A stretch of 64,000 nt of DNA, taken from NCBI GenBank assembly GCA_021775735.1, contig JAJFHG010000068.1, positions 62,001-126,000 of the forward strand. Direction: 5' to 3'. The DNA is from Hyphomicrobiaceae bacterium. GTDB taxonomy: Bacteria; Pseudomonadota; Alphaproteobacteria; Rhizobiales; Hyphomicrobiaceae. Below the pieces are notes generated by a model, which worked only from the letters and a program-made list of their open reading frames with translations, had not been told where the DNA came from and did not search any database. Shown in pieces: positions 2,217 to 16,347 of this stretch. Made by a program: the position numbers and the translations under genes. Numbering within the stretch: position 1 is the stretch's first letter; every line of letters starts with the position of its first letter.

Positions 2217-5200
2217 ATGGCGTATCAGCAAATACTACCTGCCGACACCGAGCTGATTGGTGAGTTCCAGATTCTTTCCCATTTGGGAAGCGGCGGGTTT
2301 GCAAATACCTATCATGCTCTTGAGAAAAGCCTTGGCCGGGAAGTCGCGATCAAGGAATACTTTCCATCCGATCTGGCTGTGCGGGCTGACAATGCGCACG
2401 TAGAAGCTAAAACGCCGGCGGACGAAAAACACTTCAAGTGGGGTCTGCGCCGGTTCATTCGCGAAGCCCAGACCCTGGCCAAGTTCCGCCATCCAAGCGT
2501 AGTTCGTGTGCTCCGTGTTTTTGAGGAAAACGACACCGCCTACATCGTGATGGAGTTTGTGTCAGGCTCCAACATGGAGGCGTGGCTGCACGCCCTTGAG
2601 CGTCGCCCAACACAGCCTGAATGCGATCATCTGTTGGCGCCACTTTTGGATGCTCTCGAAGTCGTGCACTCTGCTGGCATTCTGCATCGGGATATCAAAC
2701 CAGCAAACATCTACATTCGCGCCGAAGATAGTAGTCCGGTGCTTCTCGACTTTGGGTCTGCCCGACATGCTGTTGCTGACCAGGCTGGCACGACAGCAGC
2801 CATTGTATCAAAAGGCTATTCACCACACGAAGCCTACACGACCGATACCAAGCAGCAGGGTCCCTGGTCGGATATTTATGGGCTGGCGGCGACTATATAC
2901 CGGGCATTATCCGGGTCCGCGCCACCGGAATCGACACGGCGTATGCTTGGAGACACCTACAACTCATCAACATCGCTTCCCGCGACGCAATCGGGATATC
3001 GACCTGAGTTTCTAGATGCAATTGACGCAGCGCTGAAGGTCATGCCAGGCGCGCGCCCCCAGTCGATCAGTGACTGGCGCAAGCAACTCTTTCCGAGTTT
3101 GCCGTCGACCACGATTGCTGAGGGTCACGCGCCGTCGTTTGCGACGACAAAGATATGGAAACCGATCAGTGATGACTTCAGTGATAGCCCTTCCAGCGCC
3201 TCAGTGACGAAGGAACACGAGAGAAGGTCCGGATTATATCGGTCCAGAACGCTGGCATTTCGAATCGGGTTGGCGCTGTCGTTAATCGGTGGTGCGGCAC
3301 TTTACGTGGCGCTTAATCCTGCCTCCGTCTCTTACGTCCAAGACTTGCTGAACAACAGCAAACAGGCAAAAGTTTCACCTCAACCAGACGATGCCACAAA
3401 ACCGCAAACCCGACCGAAAGTTACTCGTGAGGTAACACCCACACCCAAGCAGACGCCTCGCGGCGCGCGCGAAAAGCAACGTGTCAAATCTGCAGAAGCT
3501 ATATTTTGGGAAAGTATCGACAGAGATAACCCCAATGAGTTGCAAGCCTATCTTGACGCCTATCCAGACGGCAAATTCGTAATACTTGCTAGAATCCGTC
3601 TGAATAAAATTGAGCAGGCTGCAGCCGCAGCAGCTACGACTTCAAGTGGAAAAAAAAGCAGAGAACTCCTGACAACGTCTACACCACCGGTTCATGATTG
3701 CGACAAGCTCGCAGCACACCCAGGCGACCCCGCACGAAAGAGTGAAGGTGTGGACTTCAATCAAATGCAGGCCGATGACGCAGAAACAGCGTGTCGGCGT
3801 GCGCTTGAGGTCTATCCGGGGACGACTCGTTTTGAGTACCAACTTGGTCGGGCGCTCCATCACAAAGAGTCCTACAGCGAGACTTTGACACTTTATCGGA
3901 GTGCTGCCGATAAAGACCATGCAGCCGCCATGCATGGCATCGGGCGGATATACGACAAGGGGGAGGGTATTGAGAAGGATGCGCGCGCGGCGAACCGGTG
4001 GTTCCGCAAGTCGATCGAAAAGGGATTTCCAACTGCAATGATCAATCTAGCCAACAACCTACTTACCGGTGACGGTATTAAGAAGGACCAGAAAGAAGCC
4101 TTCCGTTGGTACCGCAAGGCGGCAGATATGGGCATTGCGGACGCTATGTACGGTGTCGGGTTATTTTACCACCGGGGCTGGGCTGTACAGAAAAGTGTGG
4201 TGGAAGCCAACCATTGGTACCGCAAGGCGGCCGAGAAGGGCAGCACGTATGCCATGGTCAATCTCGGCAACAACCTACGAGCAGGTGCCGGTATTGCCAG
4301 AAGTGCTAAAGAGGCCGAACGTTGGTACCGCAAAGCCGCCTACAAGGGTAATGCGAACGCGATGCACAATCTCGGGGCCATCCTGCAATATGGCAGGGGT
4401 ATCACAAGAGATGTTGCCGAAGCCAACCGTTGGTACCGCAAAGGCGCCGACAAGGGTAACGCGGACGCCATGTACAAACTTGGTGTCAACCTGGAAAACG
4501 GCAGGGGCTTCCCAAGGGACTACCAGGAAGCCAACCGTTGGTACCGCAAGGCGGCCGAAAAGGGCAGCACGTCTGCCATGGTCAATCTCGGTCTCATGTT
4601 TGACCGGGGCCTAGGTGTGGCTAAGGATCAGGTGGAAGCCAACCGTTGGTACAGCAAGGCGGCCGAAAAGGGCAACACGTATGCCATGTACAATCTTGGA
4701 CTGAGCCTGGCAAGAGGCCAGGGCATTGCCAAAGATGAGGCGGCAGCTTTCCGCTGGTTCCGCAAGGCGGCCAAAAACGGCAATACGGACGGCATGTACA
4801 GTCTGGGCGTCATGTACAATCGCGGCTATGGCATTGCCAAAGATAAGGCGGAAGCTGGCCGCTGGTACCGCAAAGCCGCCGACAAGGGTCATCCGAGGGC
4901 GATGTACAATCTTGCAGTGAAACTGACAAAAGGCAGTGGCATTGCCAAAGATAAGGTGGAAGCCAACCGCTGGTACCGCAAAGCCGCCGACAAGGGCCAT
5001 GCGAACGCCATGTACAATCTTGCACTGAACCTGGCAAAAGGCAGTGGCATTGCCAAAGATAAGGCGGAAGCTGTCCGCTGGTACCGCAAAGCAGCCGACA
5101 AGGGCCAATCGGACGCCCTGTATCAACTCGCGATGGCGTACGACGACGGGTTGGGCGTAACCAGAGATCGGCGGGAGGCGGCACGCTTCATGGTTGAGGC

Positions 5201-5381
5201 AATCAAAAGGAAGAATGCATTCGTGCTTAAGCAGATGACCACAAATTCGGCCGCCTGGAGTAAGGAATTTCGTCGTGAACTGCAACGGTTGGTGCGAGAT
5301 GCTGGTGTTTATAATGGCGCCATCGACGGTTCGTTCGGTCCAAGCACGCGCCGGGCCATGGAGGCGTTAGCCAAGCAATAG
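2217..5381 (+). CDS. Transmembrane Ser/Thr protein kinase with 12 Sel1 repeats and a peptidoglycan-binding tail
   Basis: A 1054-residue Hanks-type kinase, probably a cell-envelope sensor. The kinase domain (about 18-270) has the glycine-rich loop LGSGGFANTY from residue 23, VAIK Lys46, HRDIKPAN with Asp159 and DFG from Asp178, so it should be active. A single membrane segment lies near 346-366, putting the kinase in the cytoplasm and the rest in the periplasm. Next come an FWESI...AYLDAYPDG segment also seen in caspase-like and kinase multidomain proteins, twelve 36-residue Sel1 repeats (about 569-1000), and a C-terminal PG_binding_1-like motif (GVYNGAIDGSFGPSTRRAM). The ATG is preceded by GAGGA at 6-nt spacing. 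The gene stands alone between two intergenic repeats. Substrate and ligand are unknown. Confidence 0.9.
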   Translation: MAYQQILPADTELIGEFQILSHLGSGGFANTYHALEKSLGREVAIKEYFPSDLAVRADNAHVEAKTPADEKHFKWGLRRFIREAQTLAKFRHPSVVRVLRVFEENDTAYIVMEFVSGSNMEAWLHALERRPTQPECDHLLAPLLDALEVVHSAGILHRDIKPANIYIRAEDSSPVLLDFGSARHAVADQAGTTAAIVSKGYSPHEAYTTDTKQQGPWSDIYGLAATIYRALSGSAPPESTRRMLGDTYNSSTSLPATQSGYRPEFLDAIDAALKVMPGARPQSISDWRKQLFPSLPSTTIAEGHAPSFATTKIWKPISDDFSDSPSSASVTKEHERRSGLYRSRTLAFRIGLALSLIGGAALYVALNPASVSYVQDLLNNSKQAKVSPQPDDATKPQTRPKVTREVTPTPKQTPRGAREKQRVKSAEAIFWESIDRDNPNELQAYLDAYPDGKFVILARIRLNKIEQAAAAAATTSSGKKSRELLTTSTPPVHDCDKLAAHPGDPARKSEGVDFNQMQADDAETACRRALEVYPGTTRFEYQLGRALHHKESYSETLTLYRSAADKDHAAAMHGIGRIYDKGEGIEKDARAANRWFRKSIEKGFPTAMINLANNLLTGDGIKKDQKEAFRWYRKAADMGIADAMYGVGLFYHRGWAVQKSVVEANHWYRKAAEKGSTYAMVNLGNNLRAGAGIARSAKEAERWYRKAAYKGNANAMHNLGAILQYGRGITRDVAEANRWYRKGADKGNADAMYKLGVNLENGRGFPRDYQEANRWYRKAAEKGSTSAMVNLGLMFDRGLGVAKDQVEANRWYSKAAEKGNTYAMYNLGLSLARGQGIAKDEAAAFRWFRKAAKNGNTDGMYSLGVMYNRGYGIAKDKAEAGRWYRKAADKGHPRAMYNLAVKLTKGSGIAKDKVEANRWYRKAADKGHANAMYNLALNLAKGSGIAKDKAEAVRWYRKAADKGQSDALYQLAMAYDDGLGVTRDRREAARFMVEAIKRKNAFVLKQMTTNSAAWSKEFRRELQRLVRDAGVYNGAIDGSFGPSTRRAMEALAKQ
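3921..5216 (+). repeat. Twelve 108-bp tandem Sel1-coding repeats
   Basis: Each unit encodes a 36-residue alpha-helical Sel1 repeat of the pattern AMYNLG...GxGIAKDxxEAxRWYRKAADKG. Units 8-11 (about 4680-5110) are nearly identical at base level, with GGCATTGCCAAAGAT recurring every 108 bp. The earlier units are more diverged. This points to recent expansion or gene conversion at the 3' end of the array. Confidence 0.85.
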
Positions 5382-6534: not shown

Positions 6535-6600
6535 AATTAGAAGTGAATCCTTAGGAAAACCTCTGTGCTGAGGATATACGAAGCGTCGAGAAGTGATGAT

Positions 6601-9372
6601 ATGTGGCGATATACTTGTACACTTTTGATCACCTTAATCTGCGGACAAGGATTTACAGGAACCGTTCGTTCACAAAGTGCGAGTGACCCTAAAGACCTTC
6701 AAGCCAAAGTGATGAATCTCTATCGCGAGGGAAAGTGTGCTGAAGCACTTCCAATAGCAGAGCAGCTCGTCGAGATTCATAAAAAAAAACTGGGACCAAC
6801 CCATCGAAAGGTTGCCACGTTGCTCGGTAACTTGGCACAAATTCACCATTGCCTGCAGCAATATACAGAAGCTGAAACACTCTTTAAACGCAGTCTTGCC
6901 ATCCGTGAGGCTGCTCTTGGTTCAGAAGACTTGCGTGTCGCCGACATACACTCAAGCCTTGGTGTTCTCTATAGGCAAATGGGCAATTATTCCCAATCTG
7001 CACCCCATTTAGTGCGTGCACTTGAGATACGAGAGCCGCAGTTAGGTCAGTCTCATTCGAAGACTATTGCCTCGCTTAGTGACTTAGCTCTCCTATTTAA
7101 AAAAGAAGGGCGCTACCAAGATGCAGAACCACTTTACCAACGCGCAATAAGTAACACCGAGAATGCACTGGGCATTGACAACCCCAATCTTGGCCAGCTG
7201 GAAAATAATCTTGGAGAAATGTACCGTTTAATGGGACGGTACAGAGAAGCACAAAATTTGCTAGAGCATTCATTGCAAATTGTTGAAAAAACATACGGCT
7301 CAGATCACGTGAATGTTGGCGCCGTATTAAACAACCTGGCGCTTCTTCATGTTGAGCGCGGCGATTATGACGCTGCATTAGATCTTCAAAAACGTGACCT
7401 CAACATTGTAGAAAACGCGCGAACATCAAAAGACAATCCAGACGTAGCCAACGCGCTCAATAATTTGGCGTATGTCTACACATTGTCGGGCCGGTATGCA
7501 GAGGCGGAAGTATCATACAAGCGAAGCCTAAAGATGCTTGAAAAGTTGTTCGGTACAAAACACCCAGATGTAATTGTGACGCTCGAAAATCTTGGCAGCT
7601 TGTTTGAAAAACAAGGCCGTTACGTAGAAGCCGAAGCACTGTTAAAACTGAGTCTTGATACCGCTAAAAAAGCACTTGGTCCCGACCACCCGATTGTTGC
7701 AGACATACTCAGCGATCTGTCCGTTCTTTACTTAAATGAACAGCAAAACGCACAATCAGCGAAGCTAGAGCAACGTGCACTTGATATTCGTGAAAGGTCG
7801 TTTGGACCAGAGCACCCCAAAGTCGCGACCTCGTTGAATAATTTAGGAGCAATTTACGAATTCCAAGGCCGCCACCATAAAGCGAAAAAGAGCTATCAAC
7901 GAAGTCTATCTATTCGCATGGCTAAATTCGGAGAACACCACCCGGACGTAGGGCAGTCACTTAACAACTTGGCGATCTTGCTAATGGCTGAAGGCCGTGT
8001 CGCCGAAGCCATCGGCTACTTTAAGCGTAATGTGACAGTTATTGAGAATTCAAAGGGATTCGAACACCCCGAACTAGCAACCGCCCTTAACAATCTTGGT
8101 TCTCTTTATCTTAGGTTGAGCCGTTTTGACAAAGCCGAAAATCTTCTCAAACGCTCCTTGATGATTCGAGAACAAGAGCTTGGATCGGACCACCCAAACG
8201 TCGCCATAGTATTGGAAAGCCTTGCAGATCTATACAAAAGCTTGGAGCACTTTGCCGATGAAGAGGAGATAAGAAAACGCCTCGCTCAAATGCCGCCGAA
8301 AGGGTCTCGGCATGTACCGCTCTACTTTGCAACGAACAGGCGCTCGGACCATGACGGAATCTATGGACATCAAATCTCCAAGGGCCTTAGCATGGGGCAA
8401 GTTGTGATGCAGGTGCCAGTCGATATGGTCAGAAATCGCGCCGAGCGTATCGGGCAGAACTTGGGCCAGTTAGAGAAAGCAAAAACCGGGAAGTTGACCA
8501 AAGCAGAGACACTCGAGCTAGTGCGCACCGAGTCGTTTCATACCATCGATAAGTTTTCTCAATTTGCAAAATCTAGCCAGCACCGTGCTGCTATCTTCAA
8601 AAACCAAGCCTTGGTCTTTGTACATGGCTACAACACAAACTTCGAAGACGCAATGAAGCGTGCGAGTCAGGTCGCATTCGACCTTGACTTTGATGGCATC
8701 TTGATCCCGTTTACCTGGCCGTCGCAAAACAGCATTACCGGATACCTGACAGACCGGGAGATGGCCGAGAAATCCGTCGAACCATTTCTTGCGTTTCTCA
8801 ACAATCTGACTCGCACACTGCCCGGTGTGAAGATTCACCTTCTCGCCCACTCCATGGGCAATCAGGTGTTGCTGCCGGCACTTTGTAAGAAGGCGTCGGG
8901 CAAAGTAAAAGACCAAGATTTACAGAAGAACAAGCTTGGGCAAGTTATCGCGGCCCATGCGGACGTTGGCCTGGAACTCTTTCGAAAGCTCGCTAAGTGT
9001 GTCAGTCCCATTGTTTCTGGGCTAACACTTTATGTAAACGAAAATGATGCCGCCCTTCGAGTCCGATGTCTAGGTGGGACATGCCGGGCAGGAAACAGTG
9101 CGCGCGGTTACGTACACGCTGACGTTATTGACACGACCGCAATGAGTGAAGGTTTCCTGCGTTCCTACATGAAGGGCTTTGATCATGATGTCTTCGTACG
9201 AAATCCGCTTTTGTTTGGGGACATTACGCGGCTGCTCATCACAGGTCAGCGTCCCGTTGATAAACGCACACCTGAATTCAGACCACGAAAAGGCAGAAAT
9301 GGCGCGATCTACTGGGCCTATGACAAGTCGGAAGACCCAGCAGCCAAAATTGTTGCAAGTTCGCAAAACTAA
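6601..9372 (+). CDS. Exported TPR protein with C-terminal DUF900-type alpha/beta hydrolase
   Basis: A 923-residue protein. The start is placed at ATG 6601 because it gives a normal signal peptide (WRYTCTLLITLICG core). The GTG at 6565 in the same frame would bury it. About 12-13 kinesin-light-chain-type TPRs of 42 residues fill roughly residues 40-560, each with an LG-x-x-HPxV signature. From about 570 the COG4782/DUF900 hydrolase begins: VPLYFATNR, then LVFVHGYNTNFEDAM, FTWPSQ, and the nucleophile elbow AHSMGN with Ser751. Several conserved cysteines occur in the last part. The TPR solenoid likely recruits a protein partner in the periplasm, and the hydrolase may be an esterase or lipase. 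Substrate unknown. Confidence 0.85.
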   Translation: MWRYTCTLLITLICGQGFTGTVRSQSASDPKDLQAKVMNLYREGKCAEALPIAEQLVEIHKKKLGPTHRKVATLLGNLAQIHHCLQQYTEAETLFKRSLAIREAALGSEDLRVADIHSSLGVLYRQMGNYSQSAPHLVRALEIREPQLGQSHSKTIASLSDLALLFKKEGRYQDAEPLYQRAISNTENALGIDNPNLGQLENNLGEMYRLMGRYREAQNLLEHSLQIVEKTYGSDHVNVGAVLNNLALLHVERGDYDAALDLQKRDLNIVENARTSKDNPDVANALNNLAYVYTLSGRYAEAEVSYKRSLKMLEKLFGTKHPDVIVTLENLGSLFEKQGRYVEAEALLKLSLDTAKKALGPDHPIVADILSDLSVLYLNEQQNAQSAKLEQRALDIRERSFGPEHPKVATSLNNLGAIYEFQGRHHKAKKSYQRSLSIRMAKFGEHHPDVGQSLNNLAILLMAEGRVAEAIGYFKRNVTVIENSKGFEHPELATALNNLGSLYLRLSRFDKAENLLKRSLMIREQELGSDHPNVAIVLESLADLYKSLEHFADEEEIRKRLAQMPPKGSRHVPLYFATNRRSDHDGIYGHQISKGLSMGQVVMQVPVDMVRNRAERIGQNLGQLEKAKTGKLTKAETLELVRTESFHTIDKFSQFAKSSQHRAAIFKNQALVFVHGYNTNFEDAMKRASQVAFDLDFDGILIPFTWPSQNSITGYLTDREMAEKSVEPFLAFLNNLTRTLPGVKIHLLAHSMGNQVLLPALCKKASGKVKDQDLQKNKLGQVIAAHADVGLELFRKLAKCVSPIVSGLTLYVNENDAALRVRCLGGTCRAGNSARGYVHADVIDTTAMSEGFLRSYMKGFDHDVFVRNPLLFGDITRLLITGQRPVDKRTPEFRPRKGRNGAIYWAYDKSEDPAAKIVASSQN

Positions 9373-9599: not shown

Positions 9600-10706
9600 C
9601 TAAAAAAACCGAACGCTATAAACGGGTGGAAGGTTTTGCGAGACGGTTTGCCAACTGTCGCCCTGGTCTTCGCTGATCCAAAGCCCACCGGTTGTTGAGC
9701 CCATAGCAAGACGTGTCCCATCATCATCAAGTGCGAGCGCGTGGCGATAGACGAGATCGTAGGCATGGCGTTGCGGCAGGCCGTTTGTCAGGATCTCGAA
9801 GGTCTTGCCGCCGTCGCGGGTGCGTGTCAGCACAAGGCGGCCGTCAACGGGGATGCGTTTTTCATCCTTGATGCCCGGCACAAACCACGCGGTGTCGGGA
9901 TCGTCGGGGTGAACCACACACGGAAAGCCAAACACAGACGGTTTGACGTCCGTGATTTCGCGAAACGTGCGGCCAGCATCGTCTGAAATGAACATACCGT
10001 TGTGATGTTGCACCCACATGCGTTCTGGTTCGGCACGGCATTGGGCCAGGCGATGCACGTCCTGGGCTATCGGCTCATGCACCAATTCGTCCGGCACATA
10101 TTCTGCGCGCATGCCTTCACCGCGTTGCTGCCAAGTCTCGCCCCCATCTTCGGTGTGCCAAAGTCCGCCGATCGACACGCCAAGGGTGACATGTTTTGAA
10201 TTGCGCGGATCAACCAGGATCGAATGGACACCCGGTAGATCCATACCACCACCCATCCACTTCTGACGCTTGGGGTCATCCCAAAGCGTGCGCATCATCT
10301 GCCAACTCGTGCCATGGTCTGTTGACTTGAAGACGCCGCCTGGAATGGTGCCACACCACACTGTGCCAGGTTCATCCGGCCCACCGGATTCCAATGCCCA
10401 CACCTGGACGATGGACCACGGGATCGGCCGCCCCCACATGTCGTGCTCTTCATGACCTTCAGGTTTTTCCGGATACTCAGGCGTTGCAATTTCCTGCCAG
10501 TCGCTGCCTTTTTCACGGCGATGGATTTTGACACCGAAGTGACCATGATCGAGGGCTGCAATCGTGGTCCCGCTTTTGGCGTCATGCAAACTCAGCGAGA
10601 CATTGTCGCCGACAAAGTCCGCGTCAGTAATGTCCCATCGCCCATCTTCGCCGCGCGCGACCGTGAACAAACCTTTGCGGGTTGCGACATTTATTGAGGG
10701 CACCAT
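9600..10706 (-). CDS. BNR/YCF48-like beta-propeller protein (annotated in relatives as sialidase-like or glycosyl hydrolase)
   Basis: A 368-residue soluble protein without a signal peptide. Repeated Asp-box/BNR motifs are visible (STDHGTSWQ, TEDGGETWQ, SDDAGRTF, TRDGGKTFE, SEDQGDSWQ), one per blade of a six- or seven-bladed propeller. True sialidase catalytic residues are not evident, so an enzymatic role is unproven; photosystem-II-assembly-factor-like scaffolds share this fold. It begins 3 bp after the MoaD-like gene. Its Shine-Dalgarno GGAGG (10718-10714) is formed by the last two glycine codons of that gene, so the two are probably translationally coupled. Confidence 0.8.
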   Translation of the reverse strand: MVPSINVATRKGLFTVARGEDGRWDITDADFVGDNVSLSLHDAKSGTTIAALDHGHFGVKIHRREKGSDWQEIATPEYPEKPEGHEEHDMWGRPIPWSIVQVWALESGGPDEPGTVWCGTIPGGVFKSTDHGTSWQMMRTLWDDPKRQKWMGGGMDLPGVHSILVDPRNSKHVTLGVSIGGLWHTEDGGETWQQRGEGMRAEYVPDELVHEPIAQDVHRLAQCRAEPERMWVQHHNGMFISDDAGRTFREITDVKPSVFGFPCVVHPDDPDTAWFVPGIKDEKRIPVDGRLVLTRTRDGGKTFEILTNGLPQRHAYDLVYRHALALDDDGTRLAMGSTTGGLWISEDQGDSWQTVSQNLPPVYSVRFF

Positions 10707-10709
10707 TAC

Positions 10710-10979
10710 TTAACCTCCGGACAAAGCTTGGAAGACATGGATGGCGGAGCTGTCGGGAACGGGATCGGATAGGTGTGTGCGATCGCGCACCAGTGCGCCG
10801 TCGATAAAGATTGCCATATGTTTGCGCAGCGCGCCTTGATCGTCGAGCACGTAGCGGCGTGCCAACGGGTTTTCCGCAAACACGGCATCAAGCGCTGCGC
10901 GCACGGTGTCGCCTTTGACGATCATCGCCGGACAGGCCACATGGCGCTGGATGTTGGCTGTAAATGAAACCCTCGGCAT
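10710..10979 (-). CDS. MoaD/ThiS-family small beta-grasp protein ending in Gly-Gly
   Basis: An 89-residue ubiquitin-like protein. The start is ATG 10979 (MPRVSF...), giving the usual family length. The frame stays open upstream to 11234, but that part is non-conserved in style and overlaps the TetR operator. The C-terminus is FQALSGG followed by TAA, the exposed diglycine that MoaD/ThiS proteins use for adenylation and thiocarboxylate transfer. No E1-like (MoeB/ThiF), MoaE or ThiG gene lies nearby. The only operon partner is the beta-propeller gene. A carrier role is inferred from family and tail; the pathway is unknown. Confidence 0.8.
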   Translation of the reverse strand: MPRVSFTANIQRHVACPAMIVKGDTVRAALDAVFAENPLARRYVLDDQGALRKHMAIFIDGALVRDRTHLSDPVPDSSAIHVFQALSGG

Positions 10980-11324
10980 CGCATCACGCCGCTTAAAGTT
11001 TAGGACGCTCACAAACCGGCAAGCGGCCTCTCCCATGGGCACCAATCTACCAAGGCTTTGGTGCTCTGTCGCTGCCCTTGGTTGGATAAAATGTAGGCGC
11101 AACACAAGCCTAGCCTGAATGAAATCAAGGCTATAACCTTGTGATAACCCAACGCCTATCTTCGCCTTGACCACAGCACAATTTGCCCTCAAAATGAATG
11201 AACGTTCGTTTTTATTGGCCTGTTTCAGGGCCATTCCTCAGAGCTGTCTGATCTGTTGGCTTGGGTCACCGTTGAGCCCTCCAACAGCCCGCCCCCAGCT
11301 TCCTTTTTAAGAGTAACGCTTTCG
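10980..11324. promoter_or_regulatory. Divergent promoter region between the MoaD-like gene and tetR
   Basis: A 345-bp intergenic region serving both directions. Apart from the TetR-type dyad at 11197-11210, I see no other clear element. The open frames across it are extensions of the neighbouring genes beyond their likely starts. Confidence 0.5.
11197..11210. promoter_or_regulatory. TetR-type operator candidate
   Basis: AATGAACGTTCGTT is a near-perfect dyad centred on GAACGTTC, the half-site style common for AcrR-like repressors of RND operons. It lies 115 bp upstream of the tetR start, so it probably serves autoregulation of the whole tetR-efflux operon. Confidence 0.55.
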
Positions 11325-11972
11325 ATGCCGAAACTGTCTCCCGATACCCAACGCGCGCGTCGTGAAAATATATTGGATGCTGCCGAAGTGTGCTTTGCGC
11401 GCGCTGGCTTTCATAGTTGCACCATGCAGGACATCTGCAAGGAAGCTGGAGTGAGCCCTGGCGCGCTCTATCTCTACTTTGACTCCAAGGAAGATTTGAT
11501 CGCCGGCATTGCCGAGCGTGATCGCGCGCAGTTTCAAAGCCGCTTTGCCAATCTTGCCGATGCGCCAGACTTTCTCGAAGCGTTGTCTATTCTTGGTGAG
11601 CAGTACTTCATTGACGAGCCTTCAGAGCGCCGCCTGATGTGCATCGAGATTGGAGTTGAAGCAACGCGCAATAAAAAAGTCGCGGAGATCTATCACTCCG
11701 TCGATAAGTTTATTCTGCAAAGCTTTGAGACCTTATTTGCGCGTCTGAGGGATGAAGGCCGCATTGCGCCAGAAGAAGATATTCCGACGTTGGCAAAGCT
11801 GTTTGCGTTGATTGGCGATGGCATGGTGTGGCGGCGGGCAACGGACCCGAGTTTTGATGCAGGTGCGTTGCTGCCCGCAGTGACACGTCTTGTCAACATG
11901 ATGATCAAGCCAACCGAAACCGGTGTTGAAACCTCTGTACCAGCGGCTGAACCGAAGAGGGCGCGCGCATGA
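11325..11972 (+). CDS. TetR/AcrR-family transcriptional repressor
   Basis: A 215-residue regulator with an N-terminal TetR helix-turn-helix: RRENILDAAEVCFARAGF, then CTMQDICKEAGVSPGALY and LYFDSKEDLIAGI. A ligand-binding helical domain follows. ATG 11325 is chosen over upstream TTG 11256 because family members begin a few residues before the first helix; GAG around 11310 can serve as ribosome binding site. The stop overlaps the next start in ATGA (11969-11972), so the gene is first in the efflux operon and most likely its repressor. Confidence 0.9.
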   Translation: MPKLSPDTQRARRENILDAAEVCFARAGFHSCTMQDICKEAGVSPGALYLYFDSKEDLIAGIAERDRAQFQSRFANLADAPDFLEALSILGEQYFIDEPSERRLMCIEIGVEATRNKKVAEIYHSVDKFILQSFETLFARLRDEGRIAPEEDIPTLAKLFALIGDGMVWRRATDPSFDAGALLPAVTRLVNMMIKPTETGVETSVPAAEPKRARA

Positions 11973-13213
11973 AAACACGTACGCTCATCTTCGCCCTCGT
12001 CGGGTGTGCTGTAGCTGCAGGCGTTGGGTTTGCAACCTTTGGCGATACCGCTCCGCTGGTTGAAAAGGTCAAAACCAAGCTTGAAAAAAAAGAACCAACG
12101 GTGAAGGCCGTGCCACCGCCCGCTGTAACGGCTGCACGGGTTAAGAAATATGATTTCGTAGAAACGGTTTTGGTGACCGGATCGTTTGTCGCGCGCGACG
12201 AAATTGTGGTCGTGCCCGAAGTTGAGGGTTTGCGCATTGTCGAACTGCGGGCTGATGAAGGTGATCGTGTTAAAGCAGGTGCCGTGCTGGCCGTTCTTGA
12301 AAGCAAAACGCTCAGTTATCAATTGGAACAACGCGATGCAGCGTTAAAGCGTGCTGTTGCTGCGATTGAACAGGCCAAAAGCCAAATCACGGAAGCCAAG
12401 GCACGGCAAAGTGAAGCCGATGACGCGCTCAAACGCGCGAAGCCTTTGCGGCGCCAGAAATACATTTCGCAATCCGTCATAGATCAACGCCGTGCATCGG
12501 CCATTTCAGCTGGCGCGCAACTGGCCTCAGCCAAGGAAGGGTTGCGCGTTGCCGAAGCCAACAAAGCGGAAATTGAAGCGGCGCAACGCGAGCTGGCCTG
12601 GCGCGTTAGTCGCGCTGAAATTAAAGCACCCGTTGCGGGTCTGATTTCAAAACGCAATGCGCGTATTGGGGAAATCGCTATCGGTGCCAATGCGTTTAGT
12701 GGTGATGCGCCGATGTTTCGTTTGATCGCAAATGGCGAAGTTGAACTTGATGCAGAAGTACCAGAGACGGCGATTGCAAAAATCAAAAAAGGACAAGAGG
12801 CTTACATCAACACGGTGGGACTTCGTGATGTGAAAGGGACTGTGCGCTTGGTGTCGCCGGAGATTGATAAGAAAACACGTCTTGGTCAGGTGCGCATCTA
12901 TTTTGGAGATGACGAACGGTTGAAGATTGGCAGTTTTGGGCGCGGTAGAATAGAAACCCGGCGTTCAAATGGATTGAGCGTGCCGCTTTCATCGGTGATC
13001 TATACGGACGAGGGTCCAAGTGTTCTTGTAATTGAGAACGGAAAAGCCAATTCACGATTGATAAAGACCGGACTGGTCGCAAAGGGATTTCAAGAAGTTC
13101 TTTCAGGCCTCAGCGACGGCGACTATGTCGTTGCTAAAGCGGGCACCTTCCTGCGCGATGGTGATGCCGTCAAAGCCATCCTGCCAGAGCCGAAGGTGAG
13201 TGACGCGAGATGA
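11969..13213 (+). CDS. RND efflux periplasmic adaptor (membrane fusion protein)
   Basis: A 414-residue HlyD/AcrA-type adaptor joining the inner-membrane pump to an outer-membrane channel. An N-terminal signal/anchor (LIFALVGCAVAAGVGF) is followed by a lipoyl-like half (VPEVEGLRIVELRADEGDRVKAG), a long coiled-coil hairpin at about 110-210, the second lipoyl half (RAEIKAPVAGLISKR), then beta-barrel and membrane-proximal domains. It overlaps both tetR and the pump gene by 4 bp. No TolC-like gene is in the window, so the outer-membrane partner must be encoded elsewhere. Confidence 0.92.
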   Translation: MKTRTLIFALVGCAVAAGVGFATFGDTAPLVEKVKTKLEKKEPTVKAVPPPAVTAARVKKYDFVETVLVTGSFVARDEIVVVPEVEGLRIVELRADEGDRVKAGAVLAVLESKTLSYQLEQRDAALKRAVAAIEQAKSQITEAKARQSEADDALKRAKPLRRQKYISQSVIDQRRASAISAGAQLASAKEGLRVAEANKAEIEAAQRELAWRVSRAEIKAPVAGLISKRNARIGEIAIGANAFSGDAPMFRLIANGEVELDAEVPETAIAKIKKGQEAYINTVGLRDVKGTVRLVSPEIDKKTRLGQVRIYFGDDERLKIGSFGRGRIETRRSNGLSVPLSSVIYTDEGPSVLVIENGKANSRLIKTGLVAKGFQEVLSGLSDGDYVVAKAGTFLRDGDAVKAILPEPKVSDAR

Positions 13214-16200
13214 ATAATCTCAATATTTCCGCCTGGGCCATTCGCCATCCGGTACCTTCACTGGTGCTGTTTTTGGTGTTGATGGTGCTTGGAACGCTGA
13301 GTTTCCAAGCGCTCCCGGTCACAAAATTTCCCAACATTGATGTGCCGATTATTCAAGTGCATGTCTATCAGTCGGGCGCCGCGCCGTCGGAGCTTGAGAC
13401 TCAGGTCACAAAAAAAGTGGAAGATGCAATCTCCGGCATCGTTGGGGTCAAACACATTACATCGACGGTGACTGAGGGCGTGTCGATGGCCGTTGTTGAG
13501 TTTGAGCTTGAGACGGATGCTGATCGCGCGCTGAATGACGTCAAGGATGCGATTTCTCGTATCCGAACAGATCTTCCACGCACCATCGAAGAACCGGTTA
13601 TCCAGCGCTTGCAGATCGAAGGTCTGCCAATCCTGCAATATTCCGCAAGCGCGCCACAGATGACATTGGAAGAGTTGTCGTGGTTCGTCGATGATGTTGT
13701 CAAACGCGAATTGCAAAGCGCGAAGGGCGTATCATCCGTCGCCCGCGTTGGTGGTGTTGATCGAGAAATACGGGTCGCGCTTGATCCTGATCGATTGCTT
13801 GCCATGGGAGTGACGGCGGGAGACGTTAATCGTCAGGTGCGCGCCACGAATGTCGATCTGGCGGGTGGACGCGGCGAAATTGGTGGGCGTGAACAAGCCA
13901 TTCGCACACTTGCTGGCAAGCAAACGGTCGAAGAGTTGGCAGCAACAACGATCGCATTGTCGGGAGGGCGCAAAGTTCGCCTCGACTCGTTGGCAACGGT
14001 GGAGGATTCCATTGAGGAACCGAGTACCTTTGCAACGTTGAACGGCGAACCGATTGTTGCCTTTTCAATTTCGCGGGCAACGGGCGCGAGTGAGACCGAA
14101 GTTGAAAAATCGGTAGAGAAGCACCTAGCGACTTTGCGTATGAAATATCCTGACGTTCAGCTCAGCCAAATTGATACAACAGTCAACTATACGCTTGGGG
14201 CATATCAATCGACCATGACAACGTTGATTGAAGGTGCGCTTCTCGCGATTCTGGTTGTGTTTATTTTCTTGCGCGATGTCCGCGCCACCATTATTGCCGC
14301 GATCGCGTTGCCGCTTTCTATTATTCCGGCATTTTGGGCAATCGACGCCATGGGCTTTTCGCTCAACCTGGTTTCGCTACTTGCCATCACCATTGTCACC
14401 GGCATTCTTGTTGATGATGCGATTGTCGAGATTGAAAATATCGTGCGCCACATGCGCATGGGCAAATCGGCCTATCGTGCTTCGCTTGAAGCCGCCGACG
14501 AGATTGGTCTCGCGGTGATTGCAATCACAGTGACCATCATTGCGGTCTTTGTGCCGGTTAGTTTTATGGGTGGTATCGCAGGGCAGTACTTTAAGCAGTT
14601 TGGTTTGACCGTTGCAGCTGCAGTGTTGTTCTCGCTGCTTGTGGCGCGCTTGATTACGCCGCTGCTTGCTGCCTACTTCATGCGTGAAACTGATCGTGTT
14701 GAAAAAGAAGGCTGGCTCCTCAAAACCTATACCCGCCTTGTCGGTTGGTCGGTTGATCATCGCATTAAAACTGTGGTGCTTGGTTTGCTGGTGTTTGCAG
14801 GGTCTATTGCAAGCTTCTATGTGATCCCATCTTCATTTCTTCCGCAGGAAGATACCGGGCGCAGTCTATTGGCGGTAGAGTTGCCGCCAGGGTCCAGGCT
14901 TGATGATACCCGCCATGTCACTGATGACATTCAGCAGCGGATCCGCAAAATTAAGGGTGTGAAAAGCGTTTATGTGTCTGGCGGCATGTTGCTCGGCGGT
15001 GGTGCGGAACGACGCAAAGCGACGCTGATTATTACACTTACGCCTAAAGAGGAGCGCACGGTCAGCCAAGATACATTGCGTGGCGTAATCAGCGAGAACT
15101 TGCGCGTGGTACCAGATGTACGTTTTTGGTTTGTCGAAGAGGACGGTCAGCGCCAATTCCAGTTGGTGGTTTCCGGACGTGATAGCAAGGCTGTCGACGA
15201 GATTGGCGCGGCACTTGCCAGTCAAGCCAAACGTTTACCTGAATTGGCGAACGTCGTTTCAACGGCTGAACTGGATCGACCGGAATTACGTGTTTACCCG
15301 AAGACGGATGTTGCAGCTGATCTTGGTGTGACGACGGAAGCCATATCAGAGGCTGTGCGGATTGCGACCATCGGTGATATCGATGCCAACCTTGCAAAGT
15401 TTGATGTTGGTGATCGTCAGGTTCCAATTCGTGTTCAGTTAAAAGAAGCGGCGCGCGAAAAACGGGATCTGATTGAGAATATTCGCGTGACGACAGCCGA
15501 TGACAGCACGGTTCCACTGGTGACCGTTGCGCGTTTTGAACTCGACCAAGGCCCAACGTCGATCGATCGTTATGATCGGACACGGCGCGTCATCCTGGGC
15601 GCTGATCTGATTGGCAACACACCACTTGGTGATGCGATGGCAAGAGTTCTCGCACTGCCTGCCGTGCAGAATCTGCCTCCTGGCATTGAAGTCAAAGAGT
15701 TTGGCGCTGCAGAAATTATGGGTGAAGTGTTCGAAAGCTTTGCAGCAGCAATGGGTGCCGGCCTTATGATGGTCTATGCCGTTCTGGTACTGCTGTTCTC
15801 AAGCTTCCTACTACCCATCACCATTTTGTTTTCGCTGCCATTGTCGATTGGTGGCGCGATTATCGCTCTGGCAATTACCCAAAACCCCGTGAGTTTGCCG
15901 GTTGTTATTGGCATCTTGATGCTGATGGGCATTGTCACCAAAAACGCCATTATGCTGGTTGATTTTGCGGTTGAAGAAATTGCCAAAGGTGTGCCGCATC
16001 GTGAAGCGATTGTTGATGCCGGACGCAAGCGGGCGCGTCCCATTGTGATGACCACCATTGCCATGGTCGGGGGCATGTTGCCCTCTGCGATGGCAGTTGG
16101 ATCGGGTGGTGAATTCCGCGCGCCGATGGCAATTGCGGTTATTGGTGGATTGATTTCTTCAACCATGCTGTCTCTCGTGTTCGTACCGGCTGTGTTTGCG

Positions 16201-16347
16201 TTGCTTGATGATGTCGCCCAGGGCTTGTGGTCGTTTTTCTCGCGTTTCATTGGCCCGACCGATGAGGTGGATGCAGAAAACGATCAAACGTCCAAATCTG
16301 AGACCAGCTTGGTTTCTGCTAAATCAACACCCCTGGCTGCCGAATAG
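13210..16347 (+). CDS. RND multidrug efflux pump, AcrB/MdtB-like (HAE1)
   Basis: A 1045-residue proton-driven transporter of the standard length. It opens with the canonical cytoplasmic start and TM1 (AIRHPVPSLVLFLVLMVLG), has two large periplasmic loops after TM1 and TM7, and carries the proton-relay Asp pair in TM4 (GILVDDAIVEIEN, Asp402 and Asp403) and the partner TM10 segment (GIVTKNAIMLVDFA). The C-terminal tail after TM12 is short and acidic. It is translationally coupled to the adaptor through ATGA. Substrates cannot be read from sequence; control by the upstream TetR protein is the likely regulation. Confidence 0.94.
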   Translation: MNNLNISAWAIRHPVPSLVLFLVLMVLGTLSFQALPVTKFPNIDVPIIQVHVYQSGAAPSELETQVTKKVEDAISGIVGVKHITSTVTEGVSMAVVEFELETDADRALNDVKDAISRIRTDLPRTIEEPVIQRLQIEGLPILQYSASAPQMTLEELSWFVDDVVKRELQSAKGVSSVARVGGVDREIRVALDPDRLLAMGVTAGDVNRQVRATNVDLAGGRGEIGGREQAIRTLAGKQTVEELAATTIALSGGRKVRLDSLATVEDSIEEPSTFATLNGEPIVAFSISRATGASETEVEKSVEKHLATLRMKYPDVQLSQIDTTVNYTLGAYQSTMTTLIEGALLAILVVFIFLRDVRATIIAAIALPLSIIPAFWAIDAMGFSLNLVSLLAITIVTGILVDDAIVEIENIVRHMRMGKSAYRASLEAADEIGLAVIAITVTIIAVFVPVSFMGGIAGQYFKQFGLTVAAAVLFSLLVARLITPLLAAYFMRETDRVEKEGWLLKTYTRLVGWSVDHRIKTVVLGLLVFAGSIASFYVIPSSFLPQEDTGRSLLAVELPPGSRLDDTRHVTDDIQQRIRKIKGVKSVYVSGGMLLGGGAERRKATLIITLTPKEERTVSQDTLRGVISENLRVVPDVRFWFVEEDGQRQFQLVVSGRDSKAVDEIGAALASQAKRLPELANVVSTAELDRPELRVYPKTDVAADLGVTTEAISEAVRIATIGDIDANLAKFDVGDRQVPIRVQLKEAAREKRDLIENIRVTTADDSTVPLVTVARFELDQGPTSIDRYDRTRRVILGADLIGNTPLGDAMARVLALPAVQNLPPGIEVKEFGAAEIMGEVFESFAAAMGAGLMMVYAVLVLLFSSFLLPITILFSLPLSIGGAIIALAITQNPVSLPVVIGILMLMGIVTKNAIMLVDFAVEEIAKGVPHREAIVDAGRKRARPIVMTTIAMVGGMLPSAMAVGSGGEFRAPMAIAVIGGLISSTMLSLVFVPAVFALLDDVAQGLWSFFSRFIGPTDEVDAENDQTSKSETSLVSAKSTPLAAE

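Follow-up and report, generated by a model that had tools for sequence, protein, structure and literature searches.

Among the closest described counterparts of the locus studied here are the CysO systems, and CysO carries a Gly-Gly tail like that of the ubiquitin-like protein (Ubl) encoded in our window (the whole stretch of DNA that was analysed, 64,000 nucleotides). PMC3227635 describes for mycobacteria an E1 that CysO has in common with Moco synthesis, and one E1 serving several carriers, with MoeZR sulfurating MoaD1, MoaD2 and CysO. We searched the open-licence full-text literature (supplements excluded) for a pair of a Ubl and a beta-propeller, or for a propeller with selenocysteine (Sec), and found no report of either. 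Both were likewise absent from the passages covered of PMC1779556, PMC2948915, PMC1796856, PMC1949818, PMC4807772, PMC1794560, PMC13188914, PMC12013277, PMC9312934 and PMC2398784. Where we saw public annotation, the Ubl was called only 'MoaD/ThiS family protein' and the propeller 'exo-alpha-sialidase' or 'hypothetical protein'.

The Ubl and propeller genes of the window

The two genes lie on the minus strand. The Ubl gene (10710-10979) encodes 89 amino acids of the MoaD/ThiS superfamily, CysO/SAMP1-like, ending in QALSGG (...FQALSGG) directly at the stop codon TAA. The BNR/Asp-box beta-propeller gene (9600-10706, 368 amino acids) starts 3 bp past that stop codon. An earlier sequence-only reading had placed the Ubl at 10704-10979; the reading frame exists and its end at 10979 holds, but the true frame is 10710-10979, and 10704 is the final base of the propeller ATG. 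The intact C-terminal diglycine that this reading described on a small beta-grasp protein was borne out, with the conserved Gly88-Gly89 encoded by GGA GGT (10713-10718, minus strand).

The AlphaFold model of the Ubl (pLDDT 94.2) had the MoaD/CysO beta-grasp fold with a free C-terminal Gly-Gly. Its nearest solved folds were CysO, the Thermus MoaD-related 1v8c and SAMP1 (Z 12.9-13.4), with Z 13.4 and rmsd 2.1 over 86 for CysO 4n6e_B, Z 12.9 for CysO 3dwg_C, and Z 13.0 and rmsd 1.8 over 85 for SAMP1 3po0, against Z 9.8 for MoaD 1fm0_D and Z 5.4 for ThiS. Pfam ThiS matched residues 23-89 above its cut-off (24 vs 22.5 bits), and the NCBIfam SAMP1 equivalog (NF041918) gave 43.2 bits, under its curated cut-off of 60. 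Genes for MoaE, ThiG and E1 were absent beside the pair, as the earlier reading had noted, and present elsewhere in the host genome: MoaE on contig C42 beside another MoaD (PPVTGG), and a separate ThiS (SARQGG) preceding a ThiG-like frame, named by eye, on C33. A further host Ubl (PPVAGG; L085, G000:C35, 2652-2903, minus strand) adjoins a frame resembling an FAD-dependent oxidoreductase by eye.

The propeller matched Pfam BNR (32.5 bits, cut-off 27), and the Sortilin-Vps10 profile was also above its cut-off; Ycf48 (NF010237) gave 18.3 bits, well short of its cut-off of 326. For the ortholog at L017, in which 29 residues separate the Ubl from the propeller Met, AlphaFold modelled a Ubl-propeller read-through fusion with pLDDT 90.8 and pTM 0.81. 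The propeller of this model superposed on 3b7f with Z 50.2 and rmsd 1.8 over 355 at 35% identity. The Gly-Gly tail and linker had pLDDT below 50, and the model does not settle the interface.

Around the pair, the window encodes on the plus strand a Ser/Thr kinase fused to about 10 Sel1 repeats (2217-5381) and a DUF900 alpha/beta hydrolase fused to a TPR array (6565-9372), both by Pfam. Divergent from the pair at 11256-16347 (plus strand) lie a TetR regulator (Pfam) and, by eye, a periplasmic adaptor and an RND pump.

Conservation of the pair

A genome scan returned 48 relatives with a best segment at 50-75% identity. By record title they came from Alpha-, Beta- and Gammaproteobacteria, Planctomycetota, Gemmatimonadetes, Verrucomicrobiia, a cyanobacterium, Vicinamibacterales, Myxococcales and Elusimicrobiota, though most are MAGs and single taxon assignments may be wrong. 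The propeller followed the Ubl in 46 of the 46 relatives whose contig continues past the Ubl (L038 and L049 end there; in the propeller gene itself, L004 breaks off and L009 has a frameshift). The first alignments omitted L038 and L048 for the Ubl, and the cut or frameshifted L004 and L009 for the propeller. Annotated pairs were present in records of Pseudomonas aeruginosa, Mitsuaria and Burkholderia stagnalis, and both genes were recognized by profile in Cupriavidus metallidurans (L052). PA1355-PA1356 of P. aeruginosa PAO1 may be such a pair; searches of the open-licence literature for PA1355/PA1356 showed no description of one.

We then counted from the propeller side, scoring a Ubl within 1 kb. 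Of 249 genomes of the window's own phylum, its own included, 12 gave a strong propeller match (E of 1e-60 or lower), and 11 of these 12 propellers had an adjacent Ubl on the same strand (G125 had none); six of these pairs, the window among them, were Ubl-first and five propeller-first. Among 199 genomes of Planctomycetota, a Ubl lay within 1 kb of at least 89 of 108 propellers, on the same strand every time (propellers at 1e-57 or better; weaker ones dropped). By score class, this held for at least 29 of the 31 propellers closest to the window, at least 26 of the 31 intermediate ones and at least 34 of the 46 of the distant class II, the last with 27 propeller-first and 7 Ubl-first. At most 19 of the 108 lacked a Ubl within 1 kb, four of them second tandem propellers. 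Four genomes of this draw (G010, G013, G014 and G020) had also given relatives in the first scan. A confinement to close relatives, which the sequence-only reading had named as evidence against itself, was thus not what we found, and the Gly-Gly was kept throughout this range with the exceptions given below.

On both FastTree trees (Ubl and propeller), four or more switches of gene order are required. The mirror-tree correlation of Ubl and propeller was r 0.84 over 135 pairs, and 0.54, 0.79 and 0.74 inside the three score classes, values reached by 0 of 1000 permutations. Since shared descent of neighbours feeds such a correlation, the switches of gene order carry more weight. In some planctomycetes that encode two propellers, each propeller is flanked by its own Ubl (e.g. 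G336, G386, G417 and G422). The Ubl and the propeller are a widespread two-gene module whose partners stay together and co-evolve. In L156, L158, L160 and L167 the first Ubl-propeller pair is followed in tandem by another propeller that lacks a Ubl of its own.

No third gene family generally accompanied the pair when reading frames were clustered around the 48 relatives and the window, and around 84 pairs; the most frequent family occurred at 7 of the 84 loci, and no neighbour pointed to a substrate. At L002, L007 and L183, and by homology clustering also at L005, a sigma factor with DUF6596 was found together with a YCII protein as a minor recurring set of neighbours; this neighbourhood occurred with both gene orders. 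VOC-type genes lay near the pair at L007, L183 and L184, and sigma factor, YciI and VOC genes are annotated near the pair of P. aeruginosa (L050). The 18 pattern matches in IMG/VR included no propeller relative, and PHROGs and PADLOC gave no match at E 0.01. Two Burkholderiaceae plasmid loci (L062 and L082) carried a MoaD/ThiS-like Ubl alongside E1 and YcaO/TfuA genes, in a RiPP-like arrangement.

The ribosome-binding site within the Gly-Gly codons

The Shine-Dalgarno sequence of the propeller gene, GGAGG (10714-10718, minus strand), is built from the last two Gly codons of the Ubl and sits 7 nt before the propeller ATG, in agreement with the sequence-only reading. The pattern GGAGG-N7-ATG alone is not rare, with 3 occurrences in the window vs 1.7 expected. 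Across 44 pairs, the window included and L009, L033 and L034 excluded, GGAGG was present in the Gly codons of all 21 pairs with a gap of at most 7 nt vs 5 of the 23 more widely spaced pairs (Fisher p 3e-8); it is thus in use when the two genes are closely spaced. The further claim that the pair is fixed in stoichiometry was too strong, as intergenic gaps ranged from -4 to more than 100 nt and the gene order is reversible. Because the Gly-Gly is kept in the propeller-first order too, ribosome binding alone does not explain its retention.

A probable selenocysteine site in the propeller

We compared the propellers residue by residue, with or without a Ubl. H161, H218, Q233, H235, G260, F261, R284 and R321 were identical in all of them, the poorly aligned L058 being the sole exception; in the window, H218, Q233 and H235 lie in the stretch His218-His235 (10002-10055, minus strand), which includes Q233-H234-H235. 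GHFGxK, H234 and H322 showed little or no variation within class I, and propellers of other classes mostly have different residues there. Judged from their position at the ends of blade strands, the conserved residues appear to line one face of the central channel. Propellers for which no neighbouring Ubl was found (L053, L056, L057 and L087) retain the core residues as well. Together with the planctomycete propellers that have no Ubl within 1 kb, this suggests that in some cases the chemistry may proceed without a carrier of its own.

One variable column stood out beside these residues. At Asp216 of the window (codon GAC, 10059-10061, minus strand), which adjoins conserved His and Arg, relatives have Asp, Cys or an in-frame TGA: across 149 propellers we counted 116 GAY, 24 TGC/TGT and 9 TGA, and after merging identical stretches the 143 unique ones gave 110 Asp, 24 Cys and 9 TGA (the residue of L087 varies between Cys and Asp by alignment and was left unused). 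The nine TGA propellers are planctomycete class II (L138, L140, L142, L145, L146, L149, L119, L120 and L130), come from seven genomes and have one in-frame TGA each. These were the sole in-frame stops among the 108 planctomycete propellers, and 9 of 9 fell in the D216 column. The 34 class II planctomycete loci had 15 Cys, 10 Asp and 9 TGA, so the class is not uniformly Cys; the three nearest non-TGA relatives of every TGA propeller have Cys. All nine TGA propellers have a Ubl within 1 kb. The TGA in these propellers is probably selenocysteine, and its repeated position is the main argument.

The machinery for Sec was present but not specific, being found in most class II genomes without TGA as well. 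A tRNA-Sec was found in all seven TGA genomes (65-75 bits). Of the 19 class II genomes that lack TGA, 14 had one above 60 bits (9 of the 11 carrying a Cys copy and 5 of the 8 with Asp only). SelB was above its cut-off in 6 of the 7 TGA genomes (not G417) and in 16 of the 19 others. In the host SelB was below its cut-off, and the tRNA-Sec score was 47.9 against a gathering score of 47, level with second-best matches elsewhere. A hairpin with a triloop starting in GG (GGC or GGT), a candidate SECIS element, followed the TGA in 8 of 9 genes. Its stability was -15.0 kcal/mol in TGA genes vs -9.5 in Cys genes, a difference much of which is explained by synonymous recoding: in a synonymous-codon control the mean z was -1.0 vs -0.1, values below -1.5 occurred in 3 of 9 vs 4 of 24 genes, and the hairpin was partly dictated by the protein motif HPAAPG. 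RNAalifold on 7 of the 9 TGA regions returned another structure and not the expected hairpin.

Sec occurs at the active sites of oxidoreductases, according to PMC1794560. Together with this, a column of Asp, Cys and probable Sec near invariant His and Arg argues for the propeller being an enzyme rather than a mere scaffold. The sequence-only reading had offered acceptor, scaffold or substrate as its roles; these are narrowed towards an enzyme by the residues around position 216, and a mere scaffold is disfavoured.

A rival reading makes the propeller an ordinary exo-alpha-sialidase or other glycoside hydrolase, with the Ubl as an incidental neighbour. The name exo-alpha-sialidase stands in public plasmid annotation and GH74 enzymes are among the propeller's fold matches, but the NCBIfam F510_1955 glycosylhydrolase profile (NF045728) gave 65.3 bits against a cut-off of 175, and the association with the Ubl is steady. 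To our knowledge a Cys/Sec column is no feature of a glycosidase, and we consider this role most improbable.

The same column prompts a further reading, in which Asp/Cys/Sec216 and the invariant histidines would coordinate a metal used in redox sulfur chemistry and the Ubl would act as donor or regulator. The alternation of Asp, Cys and probable Sec alongside invariant His would fit such a site. The fold matches include thiocyanate dehydrogenase 6sji, a copper propeller (Z 24.6), but many unrelated propellers match too and its rank is not specific. We regard a metal site as unlikely, although it is compatible with the Ubl being a sulfur carrier and both can be true.

The Gly-Gly tail and its possible activation

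In 133 of 142 Ubls from pairs the Gly-Gly was terminal, the propeller-first order included (the set holds some duplicates, e.g. L034 and L106 from one genome, and was reduced to 135 for the trees). Six of the 142 had one to six residues beyond it; Ubls with such residues include L033, L034, L095, L117 and L136. Two had an in-frame domain after Gly-Gly, LMWPc in L119 (G386:C279) and DinB_2 in L132 (G277:C23), and one, from the actinobacterial Nonomuraea (L054), had no Gly-Gly and ended in PALA. The LMWPc domain of L119 is arsenate-reductase-like by eye. Other Ubls of the draw from the window's own phylum (L078-L081) ended one residue past Gly-Gly in AIAGGC or AIAGGK, and their genomes gave no propeller match.

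These exceptions (the tail lost in L054, extended in the five named Ubls and fused to a domain in two) would suit a Ubl that stays unactivated throughout and serves the propeller as a non-covalent subunit or chaperone, and binding alone would suffice for adjacency and co-evolution. Against such a subunit, nearly all pairs of either gene order retain Gly-Gly, beyond what a binding surface needs, and the extended tails could be trimmed by JAB peptidases, which were present in both tail-extended genomes tested (G019, 96.7 bits; G020, 56.7 bits) and above 50 bits in 2 of 11 other genomes tested, all of these being small numbers. We therefore find a purely structural Ubl rather doubtful.

Activation, if any, would use a shared housekeeping E1. 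The sequence-only reading had suggested looking for a separate E1 with the phyletic pattern of the pair; such a gene was not found, as the host has a single ThiF-family match and so does G034, a pair-carrying genome with a completeness rating of 100%. The host protein (L083:2602-3441) is 279 amino acids long with no further Pfam match. A dedicated E1 for the pair was therefore rejected on the basis of these two genomes. The presence of an E1 in itself proves little, since it is near-ubiquitous (12 of 14 control genomes).

An activated Ubl could be conjugated through its Gly-Gly to lysines. These could belong to the propeller itself or to targets which it presents or releases, acting as a receptor or deconjugase. 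SAMP1 is among the nearest Ubl folds, and the Cys/Sec column could serve as acceptor or deconjugating nucleophile. However, the site is Asp and not Cys in most propellers (110 of 143 unique), no third family, and so no E2/E3-like or JAB gene, recurs at the clustered loci, and JAB matches in the host were weak (best 26.5 bits, cut-off 25). Conjugation therefore seems an improbable role for the pair.

We lean towards a reading in which the Ubl carries sulfur specifically for the propeller and the propeller is the enzyme that accepts it, a proposal that we put only a little short of even. A housekeeping E1 of the MoeB/ThiF type would adenylate the Gly-Gly tail, which would then take up sulfur as a thiocarboxylate, by analogy with CysO and MoaD. 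The charged Ubl would dock on its cognate propeller with the tail entering the central pocket, where either a small molecule or residue 216 would receive the sulfur. A recurring Ubl partner found in many phyla would bring a new acceptor fold into the sulfur-carrier or ubiquitin-like field, and the probable selenocysteine marks a site to mutate, which makes the function of the propeller directly testable.

Comparison with known systems

The whole proposal, a new class of Ubl-dependent enzyme in which a central Asp/Cys/Sec site of the propeller takes sulfur from the thiocarboxylate of its cognate Ubl, with a shared E1 and a planctomycete selenoprotein branch, is a more tentative one. The propeller itself shares its fold with 3b7f, the BNR protein Reut_B4987 of Ralstonia eutropha JMP134, whose structure title is 'putative glycosyl hydrolase' and in which the equivalents of D216, H218 and H235 are kept by sequence. 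SAMP1 resembles the window Ubl in fold and by profile, but the Ubl stays under the 60-bit cut-off. We do not know of SAMP1 pairing with a propeller, and at the one haloarchaeal SAMP1 locus included (L060) no propeller was annotated nearby. The CysO systems, nearest in Ubl fold, differ in that their partner is CysM or BexX whereas here it is a beta-propeller, and identity is about 20%. MoaD-MoaE molybdopterin synthase likewise combines a Gly-Gly beta-grasp carrier with the gene of a dedicated partner, but the host has a separate MoaD-MoaE, and the MoaD fold is further from the window Ubl. By analogy, the propeller would stand to its Ubl as MoaE does to MoaD, ThiG to ThiS and CysM to CysO.
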